Source: Ruegeria sp. THAF33 (GTDB taxonomy: Bacteria; Pseudomonadota; Alphaproteobacteria; Rhodobacterales; Rhodobacteraceae). From it: DNA of 64,000 bases. The notes beneath the pieces were generated by a model that was given only the letters and a program-made list of their open reading frames with translations, searched no databases and had not been told where the DNA came from. Position 1 is the first letter of the stretch. Each line of letters begins with the position of its first letter. This document shows, one piece after another, positions 18,327 through 63,467 of the stretch. The DNA is taken from the NCBI RefSeq assembly GCF_009363615.1, contig NZ_CP045387.1, positions 1 to 64,000 on the forward strand, given 5' to 3'. The position numbers and the translations under genes are program-made.

Positions 18327-18335
18327 CTCTTCCTC

Positions 18336-45165: not shown

Positions 45166-46365
45166 TCAGACAGCTTCGAGCGCGATTGCAATCCCCTGTC
45201 CCACGCCAATACACATGGTCGATAACGACTTTTCTCCAGGTTTGAGGTCCAGCATCGCTGAACCAGTGATGCGGGCACCTGACATGCCAAGCGGATGGCC
45301 GAGAGCAATAGCGCCGCCGTTCGGGTTCACGCGGGCGTCATCATCCGCGATCCCCAGGTGCCGTAGTGTGGCCAGACCCTGCGAAGCAAAGGCTTCGTTA
45401 AGTTCGATTACCGAGAAGTCTTCTTGTTTCAGTCCAAGTCGCGCCATCAGCTTTTCCGACGCCGGTGCCGGCCCGAAACCCATGATGCGCGGTGCGACGC
45501 CCGCGGTTGCGCCGCCCAAGACCCTTGCGATCGGTGTGAGGCCAAATTTTTTTGCGACGTCGCTGGTGGCAAGGATCAATGCTGCGGCACCATCGTTCAC
45601 GCCCGAAGAATTCCCAGCGGTTACAGTGCCGTCCGCTTTTACGAAAGTTTTCAGTTGGGCGAGCGCTTCCAAAGTCGTACCCGCGCGAGGGTGTTCATCC
45701 TGTACGACGATCTTTGGCTCCCCCTTTCGCTGAGGAATCTCTACCGGGACAATTTCACGGGCCAAACGACCGTTCGCCATGGCATCTCTCGCCTTTCGCT
45801 GCGAACGCATGGCGAAGGCATCTTGGTCGGCGCGGTTGATGCTGAAGTCTTCCGCTACGTTTTCGGCCGTTTCAGGCATGCTGTCGACGCCGTATTGACT
45901 CTTCATCTGTTTATTGACGAAGCGCCAGCCGATGGTGGTGTCTTCAGCAGAATTTTCGCGCGAGAATGCAGTTGTAGCTTTTGGCATCACAAACGGAGCA
46001 CGAGACATGCTTTCCACACCGCCAGCAACAATGAGATCGGCTTCTCCAGCTTTGATCGCGCGGGCGGCTGTGATTACGGCGTCCATACCCGATCCGCACA
46101 ACCGGTTCATCGTCGTGCCAGGGACACAATCCGGAAATCCCGCGAGTAGCAGCGACATGCGTGCGACGTTGCGGTTGTCCTCGCCCGCCTGGTTGGCGCA
46201 GCCGAAAATCACTTCGTCAATGGCCGCTAGATCTAGCTTCGGGTTTCGGCTGGCCAGGGCCCTGAGTGGGATTGCACCAAGATCGTCGGCTCGCACAGAA
46301 GAAAGCGCGCCGCCATAGCGACCAATTGGTGTGCGGATGTAATCGCAGATGTAGACGTTTGTCAT
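45166..46365 (-). CDS. Thiolase, probable 3-oxoadipyl-CoA thiolase
   Basis: A 399-residue thiolase. The nucleophile Cys90 is in NRLCGSGMDAV, the catalytic His in GGAIALGHPLGMSGARI, and the second Cys in STMCIGVGQG near the C-terminus. The opening YICDYIRTPIGRYGGALSSVRADDLGA resembles PcaF/PaaJ 3-oxoadipyl-CoA thiolases, which release acetyl-CoA and succinyl-CoA. This would be the last step of adipate degradation here. Substrate is inferred from similarity and context. It lies 2 bp after etfA. Confidence 0.88.
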   Translation of the reverse strand: MTNVYICDYIRTPIGRYGGALSSVRADDLGAIPLRALASRNPKLDLAAIDEVIFGCANQAGEDNRNVARMSLLLAGFPDCVPGTTMNRLCGSGMDAVITAARAIKAGEADLIVAGGVESMSRAPFVMPKATTAFSRENSAEDTTIGWRFVNKQMKSQYGVDSMPETAENVAEDFSINRADQDAFAMRSQRKARDAMANGRLAREIVPVEIPQRKGEPKIVVQDEHPRAGTTLEALAQLKTFVKADGTVTAGNSSGVNDGAAALILATSDVAKKFGLTPIARVLGGATAGVAPRIMGFGPAPASEKLMARLGLKQEDFSVIELNEAFASQGLATLRHLGIADDDARVNPNGGAIALGHPLGMSGARITGSAMLDLKPGEKSLSTMCIGVGQGIAIALEAV

Positions 46366-46367
46366 TC

Positions 46368-47288
46368 TTAGAGTGCCTTTGTCATATCCGGGACGGCGTC
46401 GAGCAGGTCTGCGACCAGGCCGTAGTCGGCGACCTGGAAGATCTGGGCCTCTTCATCCTTGTTGATGGCGACGATGACCTTGCTGTCCTTCATGCCTGCA
46501 AGGTGTTGAATTGCCCCGGAAATCCCGACCGCGATGTACAGCTCGGGCGCCACGACCTTGCCGGTCTGGCCGACCTGCCAGTCGTTCGGTGCGAACCCGC
46601 TATCCACCGCCGCGCGCGAGGCGCCGACCGCCGCGCCCAGCTTGTCGGCCAGGCCCTCGATGATCGCGAAGTTCTCCTCGGAACCGACGCCGCGACCGCC
46701 CGAGACCACGATCTTGGCCGAGGTCAGTTCCGGACGATCCGACGCCGCGACCTTGTCCTCGACCCAGGCGCTCAGGCCCGCGTTGCCGGCCGCTGCGATG
46801 GCCTCGACGGCGGCCGAACCACCCTGGCCAGCCGCGTCGAAGGCGGTGGTGCGGACGGTCAGTACCTTCTTGGAATCGTTGGACTTTACCGTCTGAATCG
46901 CGTTGCCCGCGTAGATCGGGCGTTCGAACGTGGACCCGTCCACGATGGCGGTGACGTCCGACAAAACCATCACGTCCAGCAGCGCCGCGACGCGCGGCAG
47001 GATGTTTTTCGCGCTCGCCGTGGACGGAGCAACGATATGTTCATAATTGCCTGCCAGGCTGACCACCAGATCGGCGACCGGCTCGGCCAGGCCGTTGGCA
47101 TAGGCGGCGTCATCCGCCACCAGAACCTTTGCCACGCCGTCGATCTTCGACGCGGCCTCGCCTGCGGCAGCGGGGCCCGCAACCAGAACGGTCACATCGC
47201 CCAGCGATTTGGCAGCGGTCACCGCCTTGGCGGTGGCGTCCAGCGCCAGTGCACCACCGGCGATTTCTGCAAGGAGAAGAACAGCCAT
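46368..47288 (-). CDS. etfA: Electron transfer flavoprotein alpha subunit
   Basis: A 306-residue EtfA: N-terminal domain (LLLAEIAGGALALDATAKAV opening) and a C-terminal FAD-binding domain with VVSGGRGVGSEENF and PELYIAVGISGAIQHLAGMKDSKVIVAINKDE. It takes electrons from acyl-CoA dehydrogenases. Its start overlaps the etfB stop. A dedicated plasmid copy suggests high flux through the acyl-CoA dehydrogenase step of the island. Confidence 0.95.
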   Translation of the reverse strand: MAVLLLAEIAGGALALDATAKAVTAAKSLGDVTVLVAGPAAAGEAASKIDGVAKVLVADDAAYANGLAEPVADLVVSLAGNYEHIVAPSTASAKNILPRVAALLDVMVLSDVTAIVDGSTFERPIYAGNAIQTVKSNDSKKVLTVRTTAFDAAGQGGSAAVEAIAAAGNAGLSAWVEDKVAASDRPELTSAKIVVSGGRGVGSEENFAIIEGLADKLGAAVGASRAAVDSGFAPNDWQVGQTGKVVAPELYIAVGISGAIQHLAGMKDSKVIVAINKDEEAQIFQVADYGLVADLLDAVPDMTKAL

Positions 47289-48046
47289 TACACGATCCCC
47301 TTTTCTTTCAGCTTCGACACCAGCTCGTCGACCGAGCCAACCATTTCCCCGGCCGAACGCGCGGCGGGCTCTGCCGTCTTGACGACGGTCAGGCGCGGCG
47401 TGACATCGACGCCGAAATCGGCGGCGGTCTTTTCGTCCAGCGGTTTCTTCTTGGCTTTCATGATGTTGGGCAGCGAGGCGTAGCGCGGCTCGTTCAGGCG
47501 CAGGTCGGCGGTGACGATCGCCGGCAGCTTCACCTTGATGGTCTGCAGACCGCCGTCCACTTCGCGGGTCACGACGGCATGCTCGCCCTCGATCGCAACC
47601 TCAGAGGCATAGGTCGCCTGACCCCAGCCCAGCAGCGCCGCCAGCATCTGGCCGGTCGCGTTCATGTCGTTGTCGATCGCCTGTTTGCCCGCGATCACCA
47701 GGCCCGGCGCCTCGGCGTCGATCACGGCCTTTAGGATCTTGGCCACCGCCAGCGGCTCGATATCTTGGTGCACGTCGTCGGCGGCCACGACGAGGATCGC
47801 CCGGTCCGCGCCCATCGCCAGCGCCGTGCGCAGCGTTTCCTGCGCCTGTTTCACGCCGATCGACACGACGACAAGCTCGTCCGCCTTGCCCGCTTCCTTC
47901 AGACGGATCGCCTCTTCAACCGCAATCTCGTCGAACGGGTTCATCGACATCTTCACATTCGCGAGACCAACTCCGCTACCGTCCGCCTTAACGCGAACCT
48001 TCACGTTGTAATCAATTAGGTGTTTTATAGGTGCAATTATTTTCAT
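47288..48046 (-). CDS. etfB: Electron transfer flavoprotein beta subunit
   Basis: A 252-residue EtfB with the AMP-binding signature region ([18 protein letters not shown], then [10 protein letters not shown] and [22 protein letters not shown]). It heads a three-gene unit etfB-etfA-thiolase, separated from the SDR gene by a strong hairpin, and so is probably transcribed from its own promoter. Confidence 0.95.
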
Positions 48047-48078
48047 TGGCGTTTATCGTCTTGGAAATTTGCAATGGC

Positions 48079-48107
48079 AGTAACGGCCCGGGTTCCAGGC
48101 CGTTACT
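48079..48107 (-). terminator. Terminator between the SDR gene and etfB
   Basis: Perfect 10-bp stem AGTAACGGCC / GGCCGTTACT around a 9-nt loop, 15 bp past the SDR stop on the minus strand. No long T-tract follows. Confidence 0.65.
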
Positions 48108-48122
48108 TGGGATGTGTCTCTG

Positions 48123-48878
48123 TCAATTCGCAGTATAACCGCCATCTACTACAATCTCTGCTCCGTGAACGAACGATGACTCATCCGATGCGAGGAACAG
48201 GACCGCATTCGAAACCTCTTCAGGTTTGCTTGGCCGCTTGAGCAGCGTGGCCCCCAGAATTGCCTGCCGGGTCTCTTCGTCGGCGTGTAGCAGATCTTTT
48301 GTCATGGGAGTATCGATGACACCGGGATGGATCGAATTGACACGTATGCCACTTTCGGCCAGGTCGACTGCGCAGGATTTGGTCAACATCCGTACGGCGC
48401 CTTTGGATCCAATGTAGGCTCCCGCCGAAGCGGCACCAACAATCCCATAGATTGAAGAAATATTGATAATTGATGCTTTTTCGGTCTCTTTCATCAATGG
48501 AACCGCGGCTCGGATACCGAGATAAACACCGCGTACATTGACGTTGATCGTCATGTCAAATTCGTCAGGCGAGGTTTCGTGGAGCGGCTTCAGAATGAGA
48601 ATGCCAGCGTTGTTCACTAGCACATCAAGTCGACCAGCACTTGATTGCACCGTGGAGATGACATTCTTCCAATCTTCTTCAAGCGTCACGTCATGCTGAA
48701 TGAATTCCGCCTTCCCTCCGGCTCCAATGATACCTTTTACTACGCTTTCACCCGCTTCCGTATCACGGTCGGTTACAAATACATGCGCGCCTTCACGTGC
48801 CAGCGTTTCACAATGGGCTTTTCCCATGCCCATGGCGCCACCTGTTACCAGTGCGACTTTTCCGGATACCCGTCCCAT
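48123..48878 (-). CDS. SDR dehydrogenase, probable cyclohexanol dehydrogenase
   Basis: A 251-residue classical short-chain dehydrogenase: NAD-binding TGGAMGMG (about residues 11-18), NNAG, catalytic Ser in NISSIYG and YxxxK in AYIGSKGA. C-terminal HPGVIDTPM is typical. Lying next to the Baeyer-Villiger monooxygenase and hydrolase, it matches ChnA, which oxidises the cyclic alcohol to the ketone. ATG 48878 is chosen for AGGAGAG immediately upstream. Substrate is inferred. Confidence 0.82.
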   Translation of the reverse strand: MGRVSGKVALVTGGAMGMGKAHCETLAREGAHVFVTDRDTEAGESVVKGIIGAGGKAEFIQHDVTLEEDWKNVISTVQSSAGRLDVLVNNAGILILKPLHETSPDEFDMTINVNVRGVYLGIRAAVPLMKETEKASIINISSIYGIVGAASAGAYIGSKGAVRMLTKSCAVDLAESGIRVNSIHPGVIDTPMTKDLLHADEETRQAILGATLLKRPSKPEEVSNAVLFLASDESSFVHGAEIVVDGGYTAN

Positions 48879-48950
48879 AGTTCTCTCCTGAGTGTTCATG
48901 AACAAATTTAATTGTTTCCGCCGGGTTTTCTTAATGCCCGACGGAATTCT

Positions 48951-50588
48951 TTACACCTTCTCGGCAGTGCGGTCGCGGATCAGGGATGTATAACCTTCCT
49001 CCTTAACCGCACTAATGGCATTGCGATAATTGCCAATCCCGGCCATGTAGAACATCACCGCATTCTTCTTTCCGGGGATATTTGCGCCGAAGATCCAGCT
49101 TTCAGCTTTGGGGAAGAGTGTCATGTCGGCGATTTCACGGCAGGTGCCAACCCAAGCGTCGCGCGCCTCCACGGTTGGCTCCACACTTTGAACCCCCTCT
49201 TCTTCCATTGCGCAAATCGTGTCAGCGATCCATTCAACTTGCGTCTCAATGCTGGGGGGCAGGTTAGTGAAGGGGCCATTAGGGCCAAGGATCATGAAGA
49301 AGTTAGGGAAGTCTACCTCCATCATGCCGAGGTAACCGAGTGGGCCTTCCTTCCAAGTGTCGCGCATGGTCACGCCTCCGCGTCCGCGGAGGTCCATTTT
49401 GACGTAATTGCCGTCGACCGCATCGAAACCAGTGGCAAAGATTACGATGTCAAGCTCATGCTCCTCGCCGCTTTCGAGACGAATGCCGTTCGGAGTGAAC
49501 TCTGCGATCGGATCGGCCTTCACGTCGGCGAGGGTCACGTTGTCTCGGTTGTAGACCTCGTAATAGTTGTTTCCGCAAAGCGGGCGCTTGGCGTAAAGGT
49601 CCTTCGGCGTCAGTTTCTCTGCGACCTTGGGGTCCTTCACGATTTGCTTGATCTTGCCCTTGATGAAGTCAGCGGCCGCATCATTGGCCACTTGGCTGGT
49701 CGCAATATCGCAAAAGGTGCCAAACATGAAATAGAAACCACCGCCGCGCTGCCAGGCGGCTTCGAAGACCCGCTCCCGTTCCTCGGGCGAGGCGGTTTCG
49801 GCGGGTTCGGCGCTTTCTTCGAAGCCGAAGGCCACAACAGAATTCTTCACTTGATTCCAGATATTATCGTAGTTCGCCTTTTGCTCGGCGATGGTAGCAT
49901 CGTCTTGCGGGGTGTTCCCAATCGGCACGACATATTGTGCAGAGCGCTGAAAAACAGTCAGGTGTTTTGCAATTGGTGCCGTTGCAGTGATAACCTGAAC
50001 ACCCGTCGAGCCGGTGCCGATAATGCCCACGCGTTTGTTGCTCAAGTCCACTCCCTCGGGCCAGGCACCTGTGTGTAAGATACGGCCTTTGAAATCATCG
50101 ATGCCCTTGAATTTTGGAACATTCGTTGCGGACAAGAGACCGAGGCCAGTGACAAGGTATTTTGCGGTAACTGTCTCACCACTATCAGTGATCACGTTCC
50201 AGAGACCGGTTTTTTCATTATAGTGCGCGCCATCCACTTTGGTGTCGAACTTGTAGCTGCGTCGAAGATCGAGATGATCCGCTACCTCGTTCATGTATTC
50301 GAGGATCTCGGGCTGGGTCAGATACCGGGTTTTCCAGCGGCCTTTTCGAAGCAACTCTTTGTCAAAAGAATAGCGATAGACATAGCTTTCCGTGTCTGAC
50401 AGCGCACCGGGATATCGGTTCCACCACCAGGTGCCGCCAACGTCACTGGCGCTGTCATAGCCCCGGACGTTCAGTCCCTGCTCGTTGCGAAGTTTGTGGA
50501 CAGCGTAAAGCCCGCCGAAGCCCGCGCCAATGACGACTGCGTCAAAATCCGCTCCGACCGTTTTAGTATTCTCAGTCTGAATGTTCAT
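48951..50588 (-). CDS. chnB: Baeyer-Villiger monooxygenase, cyclohexanone monooxygenase type
   Basis: A 545-residue class I BVMO (FAD, NADPH) converting a cyclic ketone to the lactone. FAD-binding GAGFGG is at 21-26 and NADP-binding GTGSTG at 191-196. Between them lies the family fingerprint FKGRILHTGAWP (166-177; FxGxxxHxxxWP). Length and many segments (WNRYPGALSDTES, NRDNV, GPNGPFTNLPPSIE, SWIFGANIPGKKN) match Acinetobacter cyclohexanone monooxygenase as I know it. ATG 50588 has GGGAGGAG upstream. It could also accept cyclopentanone. Confidence 0.9.
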   Translation of the reverse strand: MNIQTENTKTVGADFDAVVIGAGFGGLYAVHKLRNEQGLNVRGYDSASDVGGTWWWNRYPGALSDTESYVYRYSFDKELLRKGRWKTRYLTQPEILEYMNEVADHLDLRRSYKFDTKVDGAHYNEKTGLWNVITDSGETVTAKYLVTGLGLLSATNVPKFKGIDDFKGRILHTGAWPEGVDLSNKRVGIIGTGSTGVQVITATAPIAKHLTVFQRSAQYVVPIGNTPQDDATIAEQKANYDNIWNQVKNSVVAFGFEESAEPAETASPEERERVFEAAWQRGGGFYFMFGTFCDIATSQVANDAAADFIKGKIKQIVKDPKVAEKLTPKDLYAKRPLCGNNYYEVYNRDNVTLADVKADPIAEFTPNGIRLESGEEHELDIVIFATGFDAVDGNYVKMDLRGRGGVTMRDTWKEGPLGYLGMMEVDFPNFFMILGPNGPFTNLPPSIETQVEWIADTICAMEEEGVQSVEPTVEARDAWVGTCREIADMTLFPKAESWIFGANIPGKKNAVMFYMAGIGNYRNAISAVKEEGYTSLIRDRTAEKV

Positions 50589-50703: not shown

Positions 50704-51606
50704 TCAGAGGGCCCGATACCATGCGGCGATGCGACCAAGTTCCTCGTTTGCCTCGGGCGCGCGTCCCGAAAGCGCGGGAAAGACATGCTGCATGCCTTCG
50801 ACGATAGACAGGGTCACGTTTACGCCCTGTGCCTTGGCCTTTTCGTGCAACCGTTCGGCATCGCTCTTAAGCGTCTCGGCCCCTCCGGCATTGATATAGA
50901 GCGGCGGGTAACCGGTGAAATCGTTCTCCAGCGGGTTGGCCAACGGATTAAGCGGATCCGTGCCTTCACCGAGGAACATCCCCGCCATCGCTTCGAGGAT
51001 CGGTTTGCCGACTAGCGCATCGGTTTCCGCGTTGGTTTCCAGTGTTTCCCCGCGCATCGCCATGTCGAGCCAGGGCGAATAGGCGATGACCGCTCCGGGC
51101 AGTGGCAACCCAAGTTCGCGTAACTTCAGCACGCTGGCGATGGCAAGATTGCCGCCAGCACTGTCGCCAGCCGTCAGAATATTTCTTGCCTTGAAACCCT
51201 TATCCAGCAGCGCTTTGTATGCGGCTACTGCATCTTCGATCTGCGCCGGAAATGGGTGCTCGGGTGCGCGCCGATAGTGCAGGATCACCGACGTAACCCC
51301 AAGCACCTTAGCGAGGTGCCCTGCCATTTTTCGATGACTATCGGCTGAGCCGACGGCAAAGCCGCCACCATGAGTGTAAACAATTACACGCGAGGTATCT
51401 GCCCCGGCTGGTAGGGCCCAGATAGCCTCAACTCCTCCGACATGATCGCTTTTGTAGCTAACGTTTTCCGGCTCTAGTGCGGGCTGCCCCCATTCATCGA
51501 ACATGCTGCGCAGGTTCGCGATCGTCAGGTCTGGGTTCTCGACCATCTGATCGGTCCAATTCTGATAAAGCGCCCGCAGCGTATCCGCTTCTCTACTGAT
51601 TTCCAT
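50704..51606 (-). CDS. Alpha/beta hydrolase, probable caprolactone hydrolase
   Basis: A 300-residue hormone-sensitive-lipase-type hydrolase: oxyanion motif HGGGFAVGS, nucleophile elbow GDSAGGNLA, and the catalytic His in EGMQHVFP. Next to the BVMO it would open the lactone to the omega-hydroxy acid (ChnC role). ATG 51606 has GGGAGGA about 7 nt upstream. It heads the hydrolase-BVMO-SDR set. The promoter must lie in 51607-51893, where GACGTC occurs twice (51648 and 51666). Confidence 0.82.
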   Translation of the reverse strand: MEISREADTLRALYQNWTDQMVENPDLTIANLRSMFDEWGQPALEPENVSYKSDHVGGVEAIWALPAGADTSRVIVYTHGGGFAVGSADSHRKMAGHLAKVLGVTSVILHYRRAPEHPFPAQIEDAVAAYKALLDKGFKARNILTAGDSAGGNLAIASVLKLRELGLPLPGAVIAYSPWLDMAMRGETLETNAETDALVGKPILEAMAGMFLGEGTDPLNPLANPLENDFTGYPPLYINAGGAETLKSDAERLHEKAKAQGVNVTLSIVEGMQHVFPALSGRAPEANEELGRIAAWYRAL

Positions 51607-51893: not shown

Positions 51894-52921
51894 ATGTCCG
51901 AAATTAAAATTATCGGTGTCGACTTGGCAAAGCGCGTTATCCAGTTGCATGGTGCGTACAATGATGGGTCAGTCGCGTTTCGCAAAAAGCTTTCACGAGG
52001 CCAGTTTCTCGCGTTCGTGGCACAGCAACCCAAATGCATGATCGCCATGGAGGCGTGGCCACGGCGTATGGCTGGGGCCGCGAATTTGAGAAGCTGGGGT
52101 GCGACGTGCGGTTGATACCGCCGGTCTATGTGAAGCCGTTCGTCAAACGCCAGAAGAATGATGCGACCGATGCAGAGGCCATCTTGGAGGCTGCATTGCG
52201 TCCAACCATGCGCTTTTTCGCAGTGAAGACGGAAGATCAGCAGGCCCGTGCCATGCTGTTTCGCACGCGGCAGATGTTTGTCGGCCAGCGCCCCCAGATG
52301 ATCAACGCTTTACGCGGCCACCTCGCCGAACACGGATTGGTCGCGGCCCGCGGGCCTGCCCATCTCAAGCGACTCGCGGACGCAATCGCAGGTGATGACA
52401 CCGCGCTGCATGCTGAGGTTCGTGACCTCGGCCGGATGTATCTGGGGCAGATTGAGGGGCTGAATACGCGTGTTGCAGAGCTTGACGCGAAGATGCGATG
52501 TGCCGCCAAGAAAGCCGACTTGGTGCGCCGAACACAAACCATGCCGGGCGTGGTTCCTGTCACGGCGCTTGCGATCGAGACATTTGCCCGTGACCTGGCC
52601 ACCTTCCGGCGCGGGTGCGATTTTGCCGCCTGGCTTGGGCTTGTGCCGAAGCAGCACTCGACGGGCGGCAAAGCCCGGCTCGGGAAGACCTCGAAGATGC
52701 GACAGCGCGACTCCGGACACTCTTGGTCTCTGGCGCTATGGCTGTCCTCCAGGCTGTCGAGCGGTTTGACACACCGAATAATGGCTGGCTGAAACGCCTA
52801 CTAACCCGCAAGCCGCGCATGGGTCGCCGCGATTGCGCTGGCCAACAAGATGGCGCGTGGCCTCTGGGCCATCATAATGAAACAAGAGGATTACCGGAAT
52901 CCGGTGGCGGCGATGGCATAG
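51894..52921 (+). pseudogene. IS110-family transposase, broken by frameshifts
   Basis: Remnant of an IS110/IS1111 transposase. The N-terminal DEDD domain starts MSEIKIIGVDLAKRVIQLHG and shifts frame near 52050 (the AMEA... region). It then continues as GREFEKLGCDVRLIPPVYVKPFVKRQKNDATDAEA. The C-terminal MPGVVPVTALAIETF ... LGLVPKQHSTGGK part shifts again near 52700 (LRTLLVSGAMAVLQAVERF) and once more near 52820, ending as ANKMARGLWAI to the stop at 52919. At least three indels make it inactive. The element ends were not determined. Confidence 0.88.
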
Positions 52922-53245
52922 CGAAGACGGCATGCCACGACGTCCCGGTAAGTTGGGAGTGTGAGGAGGTCACTGAAAAGTAAGGGCAAAGGATCGATCA
53001 GATCCGGGTCAGAGAAAGCAGCATTTGTGCAGGAGCCACCGAGCTCGGTTTGTTGATATGCCTCTGGTCCGCGCATCGCCATACCGGCCCGCGGTTACAT
53101 CAGCGCCGCACACAGAGGCCTGATACATGACCGCACCCGATCACACGCTCGCGCCGTTCAAAAAATCACTTGCACCAATGGGGGCATGCATGCACAAATC
53201 CCGTGTCGGACTCATCTTATGAATCCAGCGTGGTAGCTGAGGTGC
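52922..53245. other. Spacer between two decayed insertion sequences
   Basis: No gene supported. It probably contains the right end of the IS110-type element and the left end of the IS5-type element; I could not define terminal repeats. Confidence 0.4.
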
Positions 53246-53985
53246 ATGAGCAGACCGACAACCCCGACATACAAGACCATGAACTGGCCCGCTTATAACG
53301 AAGCGCTCAAGCGCCGTGGCTCGCTGACGATCTGGTTTGACCCCGAGATGAGCTGGGAGGCCGTGCCGACAGGCAGAAGAGTTACAGCGACGCCGCGACC
53401 CAGACCTGTCTTTCGATGAAGGTCCTGTTCGGCATGGCCTTGCGACAGGCGACCGGGTTCGTCGAGAGCCTGTTGCGGCTGATCGGTCTCGACTGGACGG
53501 TGCTCGACTTCAGCACCCTGTCCCGGCGCCAGAAGACCCTGGCCGTGAACATCCCGTATCGCGGCTCCAAAGGGCCGTTGCACTTGTTGGTGGACAGCAC
53601 GGGGATCAAGCTTGAAGGTGAGTGGCATGCCCGCAAGCATGGCGGCCCCAAGCGACGGGTCTGGCGCAAGATCCACCTCGGGATCGACGAGCAAACGTTG
53701 GAAGTGCGCGCTGTTCAGATCACCGGGAGCCACATCGGTGACGCTCCAGTGTTACCCAACCTTCTTGAACAGATCCCGGCAGACCAGCAGTGTCACGGCT
53801 GACGGTGCGTATGACACACGAAAATGCCAGGACGCGATTGCGGACCGTGGCGTCCACGCCGTTATCCCACCAGGTAAGAACGCAAAGTCTTGGAAGACCA
53901 TCACCGCCTAAGCCGCGTCGAGACGAAGATGCACTGTGTTAAGTTGCTGGGGCAGCGCCTTATGGCGCGGGACTTTGACCGTCAG
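53246..53985 (+). pseudogene. IS5-family transposase remnant
   Basis: Pieces of one IS5-type transposase in successive frames: MSRPTTPTYKTMNWPAYNEA from 53246, MKVLFGMALRQATGFVESLL from 53416, VTADGAYDTRKCQDAIADRG from about 53790, and ETKMHCVKLLGQRLMARDFD from about 53920. Frames are lost near 53380 and 53800. A stretch is missing after 53905, and the 3' end is cut off next to the fadB-like gene. DDE residues are present in part (VDSTGIK, DGAYD). Inactive. Confidence 0.85.
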
Positions 53986-56021: not shown

Positions 56022-56029
56022 GGGCATCC

Positions 56030-57484
56030 TCACAGCACTGGCGCGCGATTGCGCGAGATAAATTTGGTAATGAGATAGCCTTCGAAGGTTTCCGTCCCGC
56101 CTTCAGTCCCATAGCCGCTGTCTCTCACGCCTCCAAACGGAGTCTCGGGCAGAGCGAGGCCGAACTGGTTGATGCTTACCATACCTGCCTGCAAACCCGC
56201 AGCTGCTTTATCTGCACGCTCTAACGAATTGGTAAAGACATAGGACGCCAGCCCGAAGGGTAGCCCGTTGGCCCGCGACAGTCCGTCCTCTATGTCACGA
56301 AAAGACGAGACGACAGCAATCGGGCCGAAGGGTTCTTCGCGCATCAAGTCAATGTCGTCGTTGGGCGTATCGACGATTGTCGGGGCATAGAAGTTACCAT
56401 GATTTCCAAGCCTTTTGCCTCCCGTCAACACCCGTGCGCCGTTTTCGCGGGCATCCTCGACGAGCTTTTCCATCGCATTCACGCGTCCGCGATGACACAA
56501 TGGCCCCATCTGTGTGCCCTCGGTTAAACCATCGCCCACCTTTACGCTCTCAAATGCTGAAACTAGCTCGGACAGAAATCGGTCGTAGATGCCTTGTTGT
56601 ACGTAAAACCGGGTTGGGGCGATGCACACCTGGCCTGCATTGCGCAGCTTGTTGCCCGCCAAGGCGCGCGCCGCGGCCGTGGCATCGGCGTCGTCGAACA
56701 CCAATACGGGCGCGTGACCGCCGAGTTCCATCGTCGCCCGCTTCATGTGGCGGCCAGCCAATTCTGCCAGATGCTTGCCCACCTCGACCGAACCGGTGAA
56801 GGTGATCTTGCGCACCTCGGGGCGCGCAATAAGAGTTTCCGAAATGAAGGCCGCATTACCCCAGACAAGGTTCAGACAGCCTTCGGGCAAGCCTGCATCC
56901 AGCAGATAGCGCGCAATTGCCATGCAGCCCGCCGGAGCCTCTGCCGGGGCTTTCAAGATCATCGTGCAACCTGACGCAAGCGCCGCCGCGACCTTGCGTA
57001 CCGCTTGGCTCAGCGGAAAATTCCAAGGCGTGATGGCAAGGCAGACGCCTATCGGTTCGCGCACGACAAGCTGCTGTACCCCCGGGCTGCGCGATGGAAT
57101 GATGCGCCCATAAATGCGCCGACATTCCTCGGCGTGCCAGTCGACGTGGTCAGCTGAGGCGCGGACCTCAGCCAAGGCCTCAGCCAGCGGCTTGCCTTCA
57201 TCGAGAGTGATCCAGCCAGCGATCAGTCTGTCATTTTGGCGCAGCAGGTCGGCAAACCGTCGCAAAATTGCACTTCGTTCCATGGGAGAGCTGTTTTTCC
57301 ATCGGCGAAAAGCTGATTCGGCCGAGTGAACCGCATGGTCCAGATCTGCGGCGCTAGCCTGCGGAATCTGTCCGATAGTTTGCCCGTTTGCAGGGTTTAT
57401 GACTGCACGATCCTCCGGCGTGGGAGAAGCGATCCAGTCCCGTCCGATGAGGTGCTGGATGGTCGGATAATTCATTTCTTTCAT
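56030..57484 (-). CDS. Aldehyde dehydrogenase, succinate-semialdehyde type
   Basis: A 484-residue NAD(P)-dependent ALDH: PWNFPLSQ, FTGSVEVGK (cofactor site), catalytic Glu in MELGGHAPVLVF and catalytic Cys in NAGQVCIAPTRFYV. The family acts on omega-oxo acids, which fits oxidation of 6-oxohexanoate to adipate (ChnE role). ATG 57484 is chosen because the IclR operator at 57557-57575 would otherwise be inside the gene, and GAGGG lies upstream. It abuts the hydratase-dehydrogenase gene. Confidence 0.88.
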   Translation of the reverse strand: MKEMNYPTIQHLIGRDWIASPTPEDRAVINPANGQTIGQIPQASAADLDHAVHSAESAFRRWKNSSPMERSAILRRFADLLRQNDRLIAGWITLDEGKPLAEALAEVRASADHVDWHAEECRRIYGRIIPSRSPGVQQLVVREPIGVCLAITPWNFPLSQAVRKVAAALASGCTMILKAPAEAPAGCMAIARYLLDAGLPEGCLNLVWGNAAFISETLIARPEVRKITFTGSVEVGKHLAELAGRHMKRATMELGGHAPVLVFDDADATAAARALAGNKLRNAGQVCIAPTRFYVQQGIYDRFLSELVSAFESVKVGDGLTEGTQMGPLCHRGRVNAMEKLVEDARENGARVLTGGKRLGNHGNFYAPTIVDTPNDDIDLMREEPFGPIAVVSSFRDIEDGLSRANGLPFGLASYVFTNSLERADKAAAGLQAGMVSINQFGLALPETPFGGVRDSGYGTEGGTETFEGYLITKFISRNRAPVL

Positions 57485-57556
57485 GGCGTTATGCCCTCGC
57501 TCAGTTGTGTCATCCGCAGGATCCGGCACGAAGGGGACCAGATGGACGACTTTAGT

Positions 57557-57575
57557 TTTCCGCATAGCGGAAAAG
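57557..57575. promoter_or_regulatory. Candidate IclR-family operator
   Basis: Perfect 8-bp inverted repeat TTTTCCGC / GCGGAAAA with a 3-bp spacer (ATA). It sits in the gap between the divergent aldehyde dehydrogenase and IclR genes. Symmetry, size and sequence are of the kind bound by IclR-type regulators. Confidence 0.7.
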
Positions 57576-57655: not shown

Positions 57656-58450
57656 GTGAGACCAAGGAAAGACCGCACCAAGGACGCCGAGAGACAGGAC
57701 CGCGATTTTGTCACGGCGTTGGCGCGCGGCTTGGAGCTGTTGCGGGCCTTTCGGCGGGAAGGGGAAGCTCTGGGGAATGGTGAGTTGGCCGAGCGCACTG
57801 GCCTGAGCAGATCGACGGTCTCCCGGCTGGCCTATACACTGAACAAGCTGGAATACCTCAGCTACGACCCGGATACAGCACGTTATCGACTGGCCCCTCC
57901 AGTGCTTTCGTTGGGTTTCTCCTGCCTTGCAGGGATTCCGCTGCGGCAACTGGCGAAGCCCTTTATGCAGGAGCTGGCTGATTACACAGGCATGCCGGTG
58001 GCCATGGCCAGTCGTGACCGGCTATCGATGGTCTATCTGGAGCGGTGCAAGGGCACTAATGCCGTCACGCTGGCGATCGAGGTTGGTGCCCATATTAAAC
58101 TGGCCACGACCGCGGTTGGTCGCGCCTGCATAGCGGCGCACGACCCGGATGAGCGGGCCAGAATTCTGGCCCTTGTGGAGGAACATGAAGGCGACAACTG
58201 GCCGAATGTGCAGCCCGGAATCGAAGCAGCTATCGCAGACTACCAACAGCACGGTTACTGCACGTCCTTCACGGAGTGGAAACGTGATGTGAACGCTGTA
58301 GCGGTGCCCTTCGTGCCGAAGGACGGCTCACCCATTATTGCCTTCAACTGCGGTGGCCCTTCGCAAACCCTTACGCGCGACTGGATCGAAAGCGACGTCG
58401 CGCACCGCCTTGTCGATCTTGTCCGCCGCGTTGCGGCGGTCGCACCCTGA
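57656..58450 (+). CDS. IclR-family transcriptional regulator
   Basis: A 264-residue IclR regulator: N-terminal winged helix (about residues 22-85, LGNGELAERTGLSRSTVSRLAYTL) and C-terminal effector domain (TTAVGRACIAA ... GYCTSFTEWKRDVNAVAVPF). The GTG start has GGAGGG upstream. It is divergent from the ALDH-hydratase operon and co-directional with the acyl-CoA dehydrogenase genes 15 bp downstream, so it probably controls both sides. The effector may be a pathway acid or CoA ester; this is inferred. Confidence 0.9.
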   Translation: MRPRKDRTKDAERQDRDFVTALARGLELLRAFRREGEALGNGELAERTGLSRSTVSRLAYTLNKLEYLSYDPDTARYRLAPPVLSLGFSCLAGIPLRQLAKPFMQELADYTGMPVAMASRDRLSMVYLERCKGTNAVTLAIEVGAHIKLATTAVGRACIAAHDPDERARILALVEEHEGDNWPNVQPGIEAAIADYQQHGYCTSFTEWKRDVNAVAVPFVPKDGSPIIAFNCGGPSQTLTRDWIESDVAHRLVDLVRRVAAVAP

Positions 58451-58465: not shown

Positions 58466-59626
58466 ATGGCCCTTGATAAAGATACCCTTTCCCAGTTTCT
58501 CGACGCGCTCGACCGCTTCGTGAAAGAGCGACTAATCCCTTACGAGGATCGCGTCGCCGACGAGGATGTGATTCCGCCGATGCTGGTCGATGAAATCCGC
58601 ATGATGGGCCTTTTCGGCATGTCGATCCCGGAAGATTTCGGCGGGCTCGGCTTGTCGATGATAGAGGAAGTGCAAGCCGCTTTCGTTCTTGGCCAGGCTT
58701 CGCCTGCGTTCCGGTCGCTAGTTGGCACCAACAACGGGATCGGCTCTCAGGGAATCATCATCGATGGAACCGACGAGCAGAAGGCGCAGTATCTACCAGC
58801 TCTCGCGTCCGGAGATATGATCGCATCCTTCGCCCTAACCGAGCCAGATGCTGGGTCGGATGCTGGCAGTCTGCGCACTACGGCGCGGCGTGACGGTAAC
58901 GATTTCCTTCTGAACGGCACGAAACGCTACATTACCAATGCACCGCGTGCCGATCTATTCACGGTTTTTGCCCGGACCAATCCAGAGGCGGAAGGTTCTG
59001 CCGGCGTAAGCGCCTTTCTCGTCGAGGCAGGGACGCCAGGCATAACGCTTGGCCAGCCTGACAGGAAGATGGGGCAGAAGGGCTCGCACACATGCGACGT
59101 CATCCTTGACAATGTCCGCGTGCCTGCCGCGAACATTATCGGCGGGCCGGACCGTCTGAACAAGGGCTTTAAGACAGCAATGAAAGTCCTTGACCGGGGC
59201 CGACTGCATATTTCTGCCGTCTGTGTGGGCGCCGCCGAACGGCTGATCCGTGACAGCCTATCCTATGCGATGGAACGCAAACAATTCGGTGAACCCATCG
59301 CTGAAAAGCAACTGATCCAAGCCATGCTGGCTGACAGTCGCGCCGAGGCCTTCGCAGCGCGTTGCATGATCGAAGAAACAGCACGCCGCAAGGACGCTGG
59401 TCAGAACGTGTCGACTGATGCTGCCTGCTGCAAGATGTTTGCCAGTGAGATGGTAGGTCGAGTGGCCGATCGCGCAGTGCAAATCCACGGCGGTGCAGGA
59501 TACATGGCCGAATATGCGGTCGAGCGCTTCTATCGCGATGTGCGTCTCTTCCGCATCTACGAGGGGACAACCCAGATTCAGCAAATACTGATCGCGCGGA
59601 ATATGATCCGCACTGCAGCAGCTTAA
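58466..59626 (+). CDS. Acyl-CoA dehydrogenase, probable adipyl-CoA dehydrogenase
   Basis: A 386-residue FAD acyl-CoA dehydrogenase with SFALTEPDAGSDAGS, KRYITNAPRADL, the FAD-contact QIHGGAGYMAEY and the catalytic-base region RIYEGTTQIQQILIARNM. It passes electrons to EtfAB, encoded in the same island. It lacks the obvious glutaryl-CoA dehydrogenase sequence pattern, which argues for adipyl-CoA rather than glutaryl-CoA. It lies 15 bp after the IclR gene. Confidence 0.88.
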   Translation: MALDKDTLSQFLDALDRFVKERLIPYEDRVADEDVIPPMLVDEIRMMGLFGMSIPEDFGGLGLSMIEEVQAAFVLGQASPAFRSLVGTNNGIGSQGIIIDGTDEQKAQYLPALASGDMIASFALTEPDAGSDAGSLRTTARRDGNDFLLNGTKRYITNAPRADLFTVFARTNPEAEGSAGVSAFLVEAGTPGITLGQPDRKMGQKGSHTCDVILDNVRVPAANIIGGPDRLNKGFKTAMKVLDRGRLHISAVCVGAAERLIRDSLSYAMERKQFGEPIAEKQLIQAMLADSRAEAFAARCMIEETARRKDAGQNVSTDAACCKMFASEMVGRVADRAVQIHGGAGYMAEYAVERFYRDVRLFRIYEGTTQIQQILIARNMIRTAAA

Positions 59627-59644
59627 CAGGAGCGAAGACAAACT

Positions 59645-60799
59645 ATGGACTTCAATTTCCTTTCCACCCCGAGGATCGTCTGCGAGAGCGGTGGGCTTGG
59701 CCGGATCGGCAGCCTGATGCAAGATTTGTCTTGCACCCGTGCGCTGGTCGTGACGGACCCGGGCATATTGGCCTGTGGTTTTGCGGACGAGGCAGCCGCC
59801 TCACTTAGGGCTGCTGGCATCGAGGTTGAGATTTTTCATAAAGTCGAAGCGGACCCCCCGATCGCTGTCGTCGAGGCCGCGGTAGAGGTCGCGCGGGCCT
59901 TTGGTGCTGACGGAATCATCGGACTTGGCGGCGGCAGTTCACTGGACACTGCCAAGGTCATCGCAGCGGCGGTAGCCAACGATCAACCGATTACGGACAT
60001 GATCGGGATTAATCAGGTCACCGATAAACGCTTGCCACTGATCCAGGTGCCAACCACGGCAGGGACCGGATCAGAGGTAACATGGGTGTCCGTGCTGACT
60101 TCGGAAAGCCACGAAAAAAAAGCGGTATATGCACCGCAGCTTCTGCCTGACGTTGCCTTGCTAGATGCAAAGCTAACATTGGGAATGCCTCGTCACATCA
60201 CAGCGGCCACGGCGTTAGACGCAATGGTTCACGCCATTGAGGCAGTAACCAGTCGCACCAGAAAGAATCCCATTTCCGATGGAATGGCGGACAAAGCGCT
60301 GGTGCTTCTCGGTCAGAACTTACCAATCGTCATGGAAACGCCTTCGGACCTGTCAGCGCGAGAGGCCATGCTGTTGGGGGCGACACTGGCTGGGATGGCC
60401 TTCATTAATGCCAGCGTGGGGGCGATTCATGCCTTGTCATACCCACTTGGAACAGGTTTCAAGGTTCCTCACGGGCACGCAAACGCTCTGGTCGCAGGAC
60501 CAGTGATGAGGTTCAACATGCCCGTTGCAGAAGCTGAATATGCTCGTCTATCGCGGTTACTACTGCCCTCGCGGCCTTTCAACTCTGATGCGGCTGCGGC
60601 CCATGGCCTGATCGACGAGATGGAACGGATGCTAGTCGAAAGCGGACTTGAGTCTCGACTTTCTGGTGTCGGAGTGACCGAGGCAGCCATTCCCGGAATG
60701 GCTAATGAGGTCGTGACCGGTATCACGCGATTGCTGGAGACCAACCCGCGCGACATGACAGCCGAAGATGTGTCGCGCCTCTATCAGGAGGCGCTTTGA
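59645..60799 (+). CDS. Iron-containing alcohol dehydrogenase
   Basis: A 384-residue group III (Fe) alcohol dehydrogenase: GLGGGSSLDTAK (about residues 93-104, NAD binding), TTAGTGSEVT, and metal ligands in LDAMVHAIEAVTS and AIHALSYPLGTGFKVPHGHANAL. In the island it would oxidise 6-hydroxyhexanoate to 6-oxohexanoate, a step done by a zinc-type ChnD in Acinetobacter. Substrate is inferred. Its stop overlaps the next start (TGATG). Confidence 0.87.
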   Translation: MDFNFLSTPRIVCESGGLGRIGSLMQDLSCTRALVVTDPGILACGFADEAAASLRAAGIEVEIFHKVEADPPIAVVEAAVEVARAFGADGIIGLGGGSSLDTAKVIAAAVANDQPITDMIGINQVTDKRLPLIQVPTTAGTGSEVTWVSVLTSESHEKKAVYAPQLLPDVALLDAKLTLGMPRHITAATALDAMVHAIEAVTSRTRKNPISDGMADKALVLLGQNLPIVMETPSDLSAREAMLLGATLAGMAFINASVGAIHALSYPLGTGFKVPHGHANALVAGPVMRFNMPVAEAEYARLSRLLLPSRPFNSDAAAAHGLIDEMERMLVESGLESRLSGVGVTEAAIPGMANEVVTGITRLLETNPRDMTAEDVSRLYQEAL

Positions 60800-62001
60800 T
60801 GGCTGGCTCATTGGACGGGATCAAGGTGGTCGACCTCAGCCGCGTGCTGGGCGGGCCTTACTGCACCCAAATGCTTGCGGATCATGGCGCTGAGGTCATC
60901 AAGGTGGAGCCGCCTCTGGGCGACGAGACCCGCAGTTGGGGCCCGCCTTTCAATGATGAACTCAGCGCTTATTTCTCTGGCGCCAACCGCAACAAGCGGT
61001 CCATCGCTATCGATCTGCAGCAACCGGAAGGGCGCGACCTGATTTTGCGGTTTCTTCAGGATGCGGATGTTTTAGTTCACAATTTTAAGTCTGGTACTCT
61101 TGAAAAATGGGGGCTTGGTTATGCTGATGTTCTCAGGGCACGTTTTCCTAGACTGGTACTCTGCCATGTGACTGGATTTGGTTCCGATGGCCCACTTGGC
61201 GGTTTTCCCGGCTATGACGCCGTGGTACAAGCTATGACGGGCCTCATGAGCATCAACGGCAATCCCTCCGAAGGCCCGACACGCATGGGTACGCCCATCG
61301 TGGACATCGGCACCGGTCTGATCGCCTGTAACGCTATTCTCGCCGCACTTTTGGAACGGGGCCGGTCCGGATTGGGCCAAGCCATCGAAGTGCCGCTATA
61401 TGATTGCGCGATCAGCATGATGCATCCCCAAGCGGCTAATTCCCTCATGTCCGGACAGATACCAATGGCGACCGGCAATGGGCATCCAAATATCGTACCA
61501 TACGACATGTTCGAAACAAGTAATGGCAAACTCTATCTGGCTATCGGTAACAATGGTCAGTTCGCAAAACTCTGTGACGTGCTTGGCCTACCTGAGGTGC
61601 CCTGCGATCCACGATTTGCCGACAATGCCGCGCGTCTTGCGCATCGGTCAGAGATGACAGAGGTCTTGTCAGAGTGCCTGGTGCAACATGACGCCTTCAA
61701 ACTTGAGCCGGTGCTTTTGAAAGCTGGGATTCCCGCCGGAGTCGTTCGGAATGTGAATGAAGCGTTGGAGCATCCACACACCCGACATCGCGGCATGGTG
61801 GTATCAGTTGGCACCTACCGCGGCACCGGCGTGCCAGCACGCTTGTCGCGTACCCCCGGAGCGGTTCGCGCGGCACCGCCTCGCTTCGGGCAGCATAGTA
61901 GGGAGTTGCTTAGCGAGGCTGGACTGACAGAAGCTGAAATCGATAGATTGACTCAAGCGAATATCGTTCGAGAAGAACCGCGGATGCGCGAGACGACCTA
62001 A
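60799..62001 (+). CDS. CaiB/BaiF family III CoA-transferase
   Basis: A 400-residue family III CoA-transferase with the N-terminal SLDGIKVVDLSRVLGGPYCTQ, GANRNKRSIAIDL, and the probable catalytic Asp in MGTPIVDIGTGL. It would activate adipate to adipyl-CoA using another CoA ester such as succinyl-CoA, saving ATP. ATG 60799 overlaps the dehydrogenase stop, with AGGAG upstream. Confidence 0.88.
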   Translation: MAGSLDGIKVVDLSRVLGGPYCTQMLADHGAEVIKVEPPLGDETRSWGPPFNDELSAYFSGANRNKRSIAIDLQQPEGRDLILRFLQDADVLVHNFKSGTLEKWGLGYADVLRARFPRLVLCHVTGFGSDGPLGGFPGYDAVVQAMTGLMSINGNPSEGPTRMGTPIVDIGTGLIACNAILAALLERGRSGLGQAIEVPLYDCAISMMHPQAANSLMSGQIPMATGNGHPNIVPYDMFETSNGKLYLAIGNNGQFAKLCDVLGLPEVPCDPRFADNAARLAHRSEMTEVLSECLVQHDAFKLEPVLLKAGIPAGVVRNVNEALEHPHTRHRGMVVSVGTYRGTGVPARLSRTPGAVRAAPPRFGQHSRELLSEAGLTEAEIDRLTQANIVREEPRMRETT

Positions 62002-62053
62002 GCCGAAATTTCAGCTCAAGCGGACGATCGTGAAAAAGTTCAGGGAGGCCAAG

Positions 62054-62935
62054 ATGGAAAGACTGCTCATATCACCGGACCGGATACCCGAATGGATTCC
62101 CGGCACGACTACGTTGGACAGTTCCGGGTGCAACTGGAACGGCATTACCCTGAAGGGCTATCGTTATGAGCGACAAGACGCGGCAATTCCCCCCATGCGC
62201 GACTATATGATTGTTGCATATGATGGCGCGCCAACCACTATGCGCCGCACGAGTGGCGGCCCATGGCAAAGCGCGCGCGTAGAGAAAGGTAGGATTTCCT
62301 TGCTCACGCGTGCAGAGGAATCCACTTGGAGTTGGTCCGAGCCTATCACGGTTAGACACGTCTATCTCAGTCACAGTGAACTCGAAAACACGGCCCTTTC
62401 GGTCTTTGATCGTGACCCGAAGTCCATTGAGATCAATGATTGTCTGTCTGCGAAGGACCCCTGTATCCTGAACTGCATCCAATTGCTAGAGAATGAGCTA
62501 AAGAACGGTGGAATCGGCCAGAGATTGATCATCGACGCCCTGCGCATCCAGATCGCCGTTCACCTTCTGCGTCAGTACGCCAAGGTCTCTTTGACCAGCG
62601 ACGCAAACTCGAACTTCAGCCCTGCTCAAAGGCAGAGAATCATCGATCTCGTTGAAAGCTGCTTAGGTGAAAACCTCAGTCTGGAAGACATGGCCGCATC
62701 TATCGGTTTCAGCCAGTTTCACTTTTCGCGTCAGTTCAAGGCGGAGTTTGGGTTGGCACCGTATGCATATGTTTTGCGCAAGCGAATATCGAAGGCCCAG
62801 GAGATGCTGAGAAAGGGTAATGCCCCCCTGAAAGTGGTCGCGCTTGACTGCGGTTTTGCAGATCAGAGTCATTTTAGTCGAACTTTTCGAAAAATGACAG
62901 GCGCGACCCCCGCCGAATTCCGGCGCATGGCATAA
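62054..62935 (+). CDS. AraC-family transcriptional activator
   Basis: A 293-residue AraC/XylS regulator: variable N-terminal sensing domain (1-about 185) and two C-terminal helix-turn-helices (LSLEDMAASIGFSQFHFSRQFK and VVALDCGFADQSHFSRTFRKMTGATPAEFRR). ATG 62054 has GGAGG 6 nt upstream. It parallels ChnR, the AraC-type activator of cyclohexanol genes in Acinetobacter, so it may sense cyclohexanone; this is inferred. Confidence 0.88.
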   Translation: MERLLISPDRIPEWIPGTTTLDSSGCNWNGITLKGYRYERQDAAIPPMRDYMIVAYDGAPTTMRRTSGGPWQSARVEKGRISLLTRAEESTWSWSEPITVRHVYLSHSELENTALSVFDRDPKSIEINDCLSAKDPCILNCIQLLENELKNGGIGQRLIIDALRIQIAVHLLRQYAKVSLTSDANSNFSPAQRQRIIDLVESCLGENLSLEDMAASIGFSQFHFSRQFKAEFGLAPYAYVLRKRISKAQEMLRKGNAPLKVVALDCGFADQSHFSRTFRKMTGATPAEFRRMA

Positions 62936-63008
62936 TGACCGGAAAACTATTCCTTCCTATCGCTGTCACGCACCAGAGACAAAGAAATGTTGAGCCCGTA
63001 ACGCTGCA

Positions 63009-63467
63009 ATGAATGTACCAGAAACAGAATTTAAACCACGATTTGCCTTCGAACGCAGGATTTTCTTTGGCGACTGTGACCAGCTGGGAATCGCCTTTAC
63101 TGGCCGGATTACGAATTTCGCGCTGGAAGCGATCGAGACTTTCTGGGACGATTTGCTTTCAGGCCGGGGCTGGCTTTTTCTACTCACGGAAAGAAACACG
63201 GCCATGCCTTTTGTCTCTATGGACCTACAATTCCATGCGCCGGTGAAAGCAGGCGCGAACCTAGCATGCGAGGTCTATGTGGTCCATGTCGGGGAAAGTT
63301 CAGTTGGTCTAAAAGTTGTCGGCCGTCAGCATGACTTGATTTGCTTCGAATGCGAAACGAAGTCAGTTTTCCGAGATGCTTCAACATTTGGTAAAGTCAA
63401 AATTGAAAGCTCAATTCGGCAGATTTTGCTCGCGGAAGTGGGTTCGGAAAATCAAACAGTGAGCTAG
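63009..63467 (+). CDS. Hot-dog fold acyl-CoA thioesterase-like protein
   Basis: A 152-residue 4-hydroxybenzoyl-CoA thioesterase-type protein: RIFFGDCDQLGIAFTGRITNFALEAIETF carries the family Asp (GDCDQLG; Asp at about 23-25), followed by VSMDLQFHAPVKAG. It could hydrolyse stalled dicarboxylyl-CoA intermediates and free CoA. It is the last gene of the catabolic island. Confidence 0.8.
   Translation: MNVPETEFKPRFAFERRIFFGDCDQLGIAFTGRITNFALEAIETFWDDLLSGRGWLFLLTERNTAMPFVSMDLQFHAPVKAGANLACEVYVVHVGESSVGLKVVGRQHDLICFECETKSVFRDASTFGKVKIESSIRQILLAEVGSENQTVS

Follow-up and report, generated by a model that had tools for sequence, protein, structure and literature searches.

We analysed the first 64,000 nucleotides (hereafter the window) of the 78,249-base contig NZ_CP045387.1 of Ruegeria sp. 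THAF33, whose genome comprises 4.63 Mb in five contigs. An island at positions 45166-63467 of the window probably encodes a stand-alone pathway for the catabolism of alicyclic C6 alcohols and ketones. Together its genes would take cyclohexanol or cyclohexanone all the way to central metabolites, and they lie on a plasmid that also has conjugation genes; this reading is well supported, and the pathway is probably a working one. The evidence in hand comprises gene content, motifs, pocket residues, synteny, purifying selection and distribution. A preliminary description of the window had proposed a pathway for C6 rings in which every step has a candidate enzyme; its enzyme set and plasmid location hold, its wording on novelty does not. 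Pfam and NCBIfam profile searches of the region recovered every enzyme on its list and added IclR and AraC regulators, a 4HBT thioesterase and two transposase remnants (Table 1).

The predicted ring-expanding enzyme is a type I Baeyer-Villiger monooxygenase (BVMO). Enzymes of this type carry the fingerprint FxGxxxHxxxW(P/D), which is found here as F-x-G-x3-H-x3-W-P at residues 166-177 (FKGRILHTGAWP), together with the two Rossmann motifs GAGFGG and GTGSTG. Among solved structures, seven sequences named cyclohexanone monooxygenase (CHMO) are nearest (723-745 bits), followed by ten 'putative flavin-binding monooxygenases' (658-701 bits) and a 'putative monooxygenase' (552 bits), whereas steroid monooxygenases reach at most 493 bits and phenylacetone monooxygenase at most 470. 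A steroid-type BVMO, about 230-250 bits under the CHMO scores, was ruled out. Over 527 residues the protein shares 59.8% identity with the Thermocrispum CHMO, and over 522 residues it shares 59.2% with the CHMO of structure 4rg3, presumably that of Rhodococcus HI-31. At the 13 positions which we take to form the CHMO pocket, the window BVMO and both solved CHMOs are identical throughout. As a control, we aligned 96 BVMOs, consisting of the window protein, the two references and one protein for each fetched locus (numbered with the prefix L) with a match of about 480 or more residues; L088 contributed two, the window copies L001 and L092 were excluded, and the near-copies L002, L003, L093, L094 and L097 (97-100%) were included. 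All 13 residues are found in 17 of the 96, counting window, near-copies and references, and all of these are at least 57.8% identical to the window protein. Seven others at 50-66% identity have 8-12 of the residues. Below 50% identity (72 proteins), 68 have 4-7 and four have 9-11, and none exceeds 11. The pocket is thus CHMO-like, and the enzyme is predicted to oxidize cyclohexanone to caprolactone.

The last step is marked by the thiolase, which passes the PcaF equivalog models TIGR02430 (669.7 bits, cut-off 597) and PRK09050 (705.9 bits, cut-off 605) and is, by these scores, of the 3-oxoadipyl-CoA type. A route from cyclopentanol to glutarate, or from cycloheptanol to pimelate, could be read from the best curated match of the CoA-transferase, the succinate-glutarate CoA-transferase model NF052585. 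That match, however, reaches 361 bits against a cut-off of 750, and the acyl-CoA dehydrogenase stays far under the cut-offs for both glutaryl-CoA dehydrogenase (NF045552, 237.5 versus 470 bits) and pimeloyl-CoA dehydrogenase. With a thiolase above the 3-oxoadipyl-CoA cut-off and a CHMO-type pocket, a C5 or C7 pathway is extremely unlikely, and we rejected it on the thiolase, acyl-CoA dehydrogenase and pocket evidence. The same findings argue against the steroid and glutarate alternatives that the preliminary description had itself named. Adipate is probably the substrate of the CoA-transferase.

We propose the following route, in which every substrate is predicted from sequence, as is the regulation. 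The short-chain dehydrogenase/reductase (SDR) would oxidize cyclohexanol to cyclohexanone, which the CHMO-type BVMO would convert to epsilon-caprolactone with NADPH and O2, and the alpha/beta hydrolase would open the lactone to 6-hydroxyhexanoate. The iron-type alcohol dehydrogenase and the aldehyde dehydrogenase would then lead via 6-oxohexanoate to adipate, to which the family III transferase would probably move CoA from succinyl-CoA. The acyl-CoA dehydrogenase would turn adipyl-CoA into 2,3-dehydroadipyl-CoA, with the EtfAB encoded in the island as electron acceptor; a membrane-bound Etf:quinone oxidoreductase would have to be supplied by the host. The fused hydratase/dehydrogenase would yield 3-oxoadipyl-CoA, and the PcaF-type thiolase would cleave this to acetyl-CoA and succinyl-CoA. 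Since succinyl-CoA would be regenerated in this way, adipate activation would need no ATP. To our knowledge, adipate would be a new substrate for family III CoA-transferases.

Residue-level evidence was collected for these enzymes as well. The CoA-transferase belongs to family III by PF02515 and by an aspartate common to the solved relatives aligned with it, which we take to be catalytic. The glutamate of the YEGT motif in the acyl-CoA dehydrogenase is presumably functional, and a pattern search found HFFSP in the hydratase/dehydrogenase. Of the 35 motif patterns, 11 gave no match; these include the third thiolase cysteine, the histidines of the iron-type alcohol dehydrogenase and the SDR glycine motif, as well as two patterns each for the aldehyde dehydrogenase and the CoA-transferase and three for the hydratase/dehydrogenase. 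By eye, we find CIGVGQG in the thiolase, TGGAMGMG in the SDR, ELGG in the aldehyde dehydrogenase, Asp and His residues in the iron-type alcohol dehydrogenase and two crotonase glutamates, all of which we assume to have their usual functional roles. The SDR passes only a broad 'glucose 1-dehydrogenase' subfamily model; an SDR of this name adjoins or lies near the BVMO gene in L004, L086, L087, L088, L090 and L091, and is absent from the L089 stretch. In most carrier plasmids the hydratase/dehydrogenase homologues bear the automatic name 'FAD-dependent oxidoreductase', which is probably misleading.

The unit recurs beyond the roseobacters. A different plasmid, from Roseibium sp. Sym1 (L004, Stappiaceae), holds the same 13 genes from pcaF to araC with order and orientation kept; megablast pieces cover 65% of a 20-kb query at 75.4% identity, and five further Roseibium/Labrenzia plasmids match in the same way by sequence search only. 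Upper genes are 82-88% and most lower genes 80-89% identical, the outliers being the hydratase/dehydrogenase (66%), pcaF and Etf (74-80%) and AraC (69%). The Roseibium locus differs from the island in having no transposase remnants, no thioesterase, unrelated flanks and a higher GC content (third-position GC, GC3, of 0.80-0.91 in 12 of 13 genes, 0.72 in araC), and its host belongs to Hyphomicrobiales, the roseobacter carriers to Rhodobacterales. Ratios of dN/dS between the two lie at 0.04-0.24 in 12 of the 13 genes, with finite dS of 0.79-4.6 near saturation; the SDR, whose dS is infinite, is left out of the range. The island thus appears to be under purifying selection. A decaying, non-functional relic would agree with the transposase remnants and with the partial islands and broken genes of some plasmids. 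We regard it as very unlikely in view of the low dN/dS, of 14 open frames out of 14 in the window, and of the copies L002 and L097, in which none of the 14 genes contains a stop.

Linkage across plasmids points in the same direction. Relatives of the hydratase/dehydrogenase at 60% identity or more occur in 20 of 110 matching plasmid records, and relatives of the CoA-transferase at 80% or more in 20 of 39; these are exactly the same 20 plasmids. Eighteen of them also carry a BVMO of at least 80% identity (19 of 121 matching records overall), and in the remaining two an IS21 element replaces the upper genes. The one such BVMO record without the lower arm is from Actibacterium sp. EMB200-NS6. The island is not a chance cluster: the Roseibium plasmid repeats its order of 13 genes, and this synteny together with the 20-plasmid linkage rules that possibility out.

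A common regulation of both arms is suggested by the 171-bp region between the divergent aldehyde dehydrogenase and iclR genes, which holds the palindrome TTCCGC-N3-GCGGAA. It occurs once in the window, even when one mismatch is allowed (0.51 expected by chance). Its weight comes from its conservation beside iclR in related loci. The exact form is present in four of 97 loci (L002, L004, L086 and L097), beside iclR every time. Nine related loci were checked between iclR and the gene diverging from it, and each has the palindrome with at most one mismatch: these four have none, and the other five (L003, L006, L094, L095 and L096) have one; in L006 the stretch checked contains a run of N. L002, L003 and L094-L097 are closely related to the window; L004 and the pair L086/L006 represent independent lines. 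The palindrome is probably the IclR operator, at which IclR would hold both divergent operons until an intermediate appears. By eye, TTGACG-17-TTAGAT is seen upstream of iclR. The island also holds an AraC-family gene (PF12833), and ChnR of the classical chn cluster is an AraC-type activator.

Two independent modules side by side, a chn upper pathway and a general dicarboxylate beta-oxidation without shared regulation, would account for the pairing of upper genes with other lower arms in L086, L087 and L091, for the IS21 derivatives that retain the lower arm, and for the GC3 of etfA and etfB (about 0.81, against values of 0.50-0.69 in the remaining island genes here). Such a pair is nevertheless unlikely: upper and most lower genes are similarly diverged in Roseibium within a conserved order, all 20 plasmids with a CoA-transferase of this subfamily also have the hydratase/dehydrogenase and vice versa, 18 having the BVMO in addition, and the palindrome lies between iclR and the hydrolase-BVMO genes in L086 and L006, and between iclR and the aldehyde dehydrogenase gene in the window. 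The genome encodes a further copy of EtfA on contig C1, with which the island protein shares 78% identity.

The minus-strand genes of Table 1, pcaF to aldehyde dehydrogenase, form a leftward block that includes the transposase remnants, and iclR to the thioesterase form a rightward one. The true starts of four proteins are likely downstream of those of the longest open reading frames, which would give 545 residues for the BVMO, 251 for the SDR, 300 for the hydrolase and 484 for the aldehyde dehydrogenase; these starts follow the annotation of the near-identical Sulfitobacter faviae locus L002. The IS110-type remnant (Pfam match at 52034-52792) is frame-broken and interrupted by stops in each of the three forward frames; a further piece, from a DDE transposase, matches Pfam at 53416-53802. 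RNA elements at the gathering threshold are absent from 44-64 kb.

Table 1. Features of the island, in coordinates of the window.
Feature	Position	Strand	Supporting evidence
pcaF-type 3-oxoadipyl-CoA thiolase (last step, succinyl-CoA + acetyl-CoA)	45166..46365	-	TIGR02430, PRK09050; NRLCGSG, GHPLGMSG
EtfA, electron acceptor for acyl-CoA dehydrogenase	46368..47288	-	PF00766, PF01012
EtfB	47288..48046	-	PF01012
SDR alcohol dehydrogenase, probable cyclohexanol dehydrogenase	48123..48878	-	PF13561, PF00106; YIGSK, NNAG
Type I BVMO, CHMO type	48951..50588	-	solved CHMOs nearest; pocket residues
Alpha/beta hydrolase (HSL family), probable caprolactone hydrolase	50704..51606	-	PF07859; HGGG, GDSAG, DPL, HVF
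Transposase remnants, IS110-type and DDE, outside the pathway	51894..53980	+	Pfam; broken frame
Fused enoyl-CoA hydratase/3-hydroxyacyl-CoA dehydrogenase (FadB-like)	53982..56033	-	PF00378, PF02737, PF00725
Aldehyde dehydrogenase (SSADH-like), probable 6-oxohexanoate dehydrogenase	56030..57484	-	PF00171; GQVC
Palindrome TTTTCCGC-ATA-GCGGAAAA, probable IclR operator, divergent region	57556..57574	.	conservation across related loci
IclR-family regulator, nearest to PcaR/PcaU/PobR	57656..58450	+	PF09339, PF01614
Acyl-CoA dehydrogenase, probable adipyl-CoA dehydrogenase	58466..59626	+	PF00441, PF02770, PF02771; YEGT
Iron-type alcohol dehydrogenase, probable 6-hydroxyhexanoate dehydrogenase	59645..60799	+	PF00465, PF25137
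Family III CoA-transferase, probable succinyl-CoA:adipate CoA-transferase	60796..62001	+	PF02515, 429.4 vs 23.3 bits
AraC-family regulator	62030..62935	+	PF12833
4HBT-type acyl-CoA thioesterase, accessory	63009..63467	+	PF03061; no match in Roseibium L004

Several observations weigh against a complete and jointly regulated pathway. The alcohol, aldehyde and acyl-CoA dehydrogenases, the hydratase/dehydrogenase (454 bits with the best FadB model, cut-off 870) and the CoA-transferase all fall under specific equivalog cut-offs; the aldehyde dehydrogenase, for example, scores 464.4 bits against TIGR01780 (cut-off 646.35). The substrates of the acyl-CoA dehydrogenase, aldehyde dehydrogenase, iron-type alcohol dehydrogenase, hydratase/dehydrogenase and CoA-transferase therefore rest on context. 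IclR does not reach the cut-off of the PcaR/PcaU/PobR model TIGR02431 (135.6 versus 284.75 bits), the single match of the palindrome in the window is by itself not significant at one mismatch, and a consensus scan of the divergent region for a sigma-70 promoter gave none. The transposase remnants part the hydratase/dehydrogenase gene from the downstream hydrolase and BVMO genes by a gap of 2375 bp, versus 240 bp in Roseibium L004, so that the upper genes may be transcribed differently in the window lineage. Pfam searches recognised no transporter among the island genes. Finally, maintenance is not universal. Some plasmids hold only part of the island: the S. alexandrii copy is without araC and thioesterase and has a shortened CoA-transferase gene, and S. 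indolifex and S. pontiacus OXR-199 have lost the upper genes. In the S. pontiacus BL28 copy (L003), pcaF is interrupted by a stop and the frames of two genes are broken, which may be assembly errors.

Clusters of chn genes for cyclohexanol and cyclohexanone are known from Acinetobacter and Rhodococcus. The island holds the classical set of SDR, BVMO, hydrolase, hydroxyacid dehydrogenase and aldehyde dehydrogenase, the last two in predicted roles. ChnD is a zinc-type 6-hydroxyhexanoate dehydrogenase, whereas the island has an iron-type enzyme (PF00465). The SDR, CHMO and alpha/beta hydrolase core is shared with a plasmid of Polaromonas JS666 (L090), where hydrolase, BVMO and SDR genes stand in a row followed by one annotated just 'alcohol dehydrogenase', and a CoA-transferase 58.6% identical to ours lies elsewhere on that plasmid. 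A plasmid location of chn genes was thus already on deposit. Unlike the chn clusters and JS666, the island unites adipate activation, beta-oxidation enzymes, Etf and PcaF. The earlier statement that known chn clusters stop at adipate is contradicted by plasmid pYLL2 of Rhodococcus sp. YL-1 (L091; pocket 13/13), whose chn genes lie beside genes for an acyl-CoA dehydrogenase, a CaiB-type CoA-transferase, an SDR, a thiolase and a MaoC dehydratase. This arm is predicted to act on adipate, and an acid arm next to chn genes is therefore not unique to the island. The pYLL2 arm differs in its annotated MaoC and FabG-type SDR in place of the fused hydratase/dehydrogenase, in a thiolase under the PcaF cut-off (389 versus 597) and in the lack of Etf among the genes listed, and the plasmid is typed as non-mobilizable. 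In Neobacillus drentensis, from another phylum, a BVMO of 69% identity has a hydrolase, iron-type alcohol dehydrogenase, aldehyde dehydrogenase, AMP-ligase and CoA-transferase within 10 kb.

Beta-oxidation of adipate after CoA activation is also the principle of the dca genes of Acinetobacter baylyi. These encode a two-subunit family I CoA-transferase and are not known to be tied to ring opening, both unlike the island. PMC10870600 describes their use for adipate, and PMC9477822 states that adipic acid derived from ChnE may enter fatty acid beta-oxidation; further background is found in PMC7923564 and PMC6941271. Every enzyme type of the island is known. The island stands out from the compared clusters in that one probable regulon unites everything, including a dedicated Etf, a PcaF-type thiolase and a fused hydratase/dehydrogenase, and in its patchy, nearly identical spread across genera. 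The novelty claim of the preliminary description is overstated, and the observation itself stands. Two carrier plasmids, pDSM107133_g (CP085161) and pDSM14862_e (CP084956), are listed in PMC9025767. The main texts of this and three other roseobacter plasmid papers (PMC13386836, PMC9044938, PMC5513947), as far as accessible, hold no 'cyclohexan' term, and their supplements, outside that scope, may describe the cargo. Among roseobacter and Sulfitobacter papers with cyclohexan- terms, none concerns the island cargo by title, most subscription papers lying outside this scope. The all-in-one marine version and its spread look little studied.

Two other roseobacter plasmids carry a chn core near genes for a CitE-like lyase, MaoC, CoA-transferase and acyl-CoA dehydrogenase (L086, 19264-23264; L087, 5424-9009, where the CoA-transferase is short). 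As a speculation, replacing the thiolase by a lyase would make sense for a branched acid that passes through a tertiary alcohol, possibly in a methylcyclohexanone variant.

The plasmid setting claimed by the preliminary description is borne out. Pfam identifies RepABC-type replication genes at 1-3882 of the window (ParA-like and RepC); the RepB candidate between them (1353-2375) has no Pfam match. Profile searches find a relaxase and a coupling protein at 22-26 kb and homologues of VirB1, 4, 5, 6, 8, 9, 10 and 11 at 32-43.6 kb. The island thus lies on a RepABC plasmid with a full set of transfer genes, from which its ability to transfer is predicted, and the unit would move on plasmids of this kind. 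P450 matches, as candidates for cyclohexane hydroxylation, lie on contigs C1 and C2 of the genome and none on the plasmid contig. A second full-length BVMO, 41% identical, is encoded on another contig (C3:204580-206193). The genome also encodes relatives of the island thiolase (66% identical, on C2) and CoA-transferase (44%, on C1), which might stand in for these enzymes if they were lost.

In public roseobacter plasmids the island is found at up to 98.3% over 20 kb, and 12 of those on deposit have it complete or almost so. In eleven deposited plasmids a single region matches 80% or more of the 20-kb query. A BVMO of at least 95% identity occurs in 12 plasmid records, all among the 18 that also carry the lower arm. 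Within genomes the island is rare: the BVMO is detected at E<=1e-200 in two of 394 genomes of the family, and the CoA-transferase at E<=1e-190 in six of 390 genomes of the order (5 of 139 genera), our own included each time, all six being 99-100% identical. Copies so sporadic and nearly identical indicate, by sequence, that the spread is due to recent horizontal transfer. By identity per 1-kb bin, the island itself is a mosaic of two plasmid lineages that switches near the transposase remnants: 46-54 kb is 99.6-100% identical to Sulfitobacter faviae L002, the segments at 54-56 kb and 58-63 kb match S. pontiacus BL28 at 99.5-100%, and 56-58 kb is 97-99% identical to both.

The carriers and the partial Actibacterium relative come from algae, corals, a copepod, seawater, a vent plume, a polyethylene surface and an oil-contaminated tidal flat; algae or invertebrates are the origin of seven of the 14 roseobacter records from the 20-kb search. 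These sources point to no single compound. CHMOs accept many ketones, and two plasmids keep the aldehyde-to-CoA arm after loss of the BVMO region. It is therefore possible, if rather doubtful, that the natural substrate is a related compound entering the same funnel (a substituted cyclohexanone, caprolactone or caproate oligomers, 6-hydroxyhexanoate or adipate esters) and that cyclohexanol is incidental. The pocket, however, equals that of two enzymes named cyclohexanone monooxygenase, and a straight C6 acid arm ending in PcaF would presumably fit branched acids poorly. We see an even chance that a single conjugation event delivers a catabolon leading from the ring to the tricarboxylic acid cycle, in which a CHMO start and an ATP-free adipate arm are joined under one IclR regulon, PcaF regenerates succinyl-CoA for a family III succinyl-CoA:adipate CoA-transferase, and the module recurs between roseobacter genera and is shared with Stappiaceae. 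If true, this would imply that cyclic C6 alcohols or ketones become available in the sea time and again. The pathway reading, if right, would allow the fate of cyclohexanol-type compounds in the sea to be tested with culturable bacteria, offer adipate and caprolactone biotechnology a compact one-piece pathway including ATP-free adipate activation, and name a function for the cargo of a widespread roseobacter plasmid family.

The same plasmid also has a defence-rich region (window 7550-19361 and 28422-31963), in which PADLOC identifies an AbiE pair, an SngABC trio (TerB, BrxC/D-like and helicase), HerA with SIR2, and Hachiman HamA/HamB. Between the coupling protein and the Hachiman genes, 26013-27434 encodes a protein with a Tle1-like phospholipase domain that has no PADLOC match.

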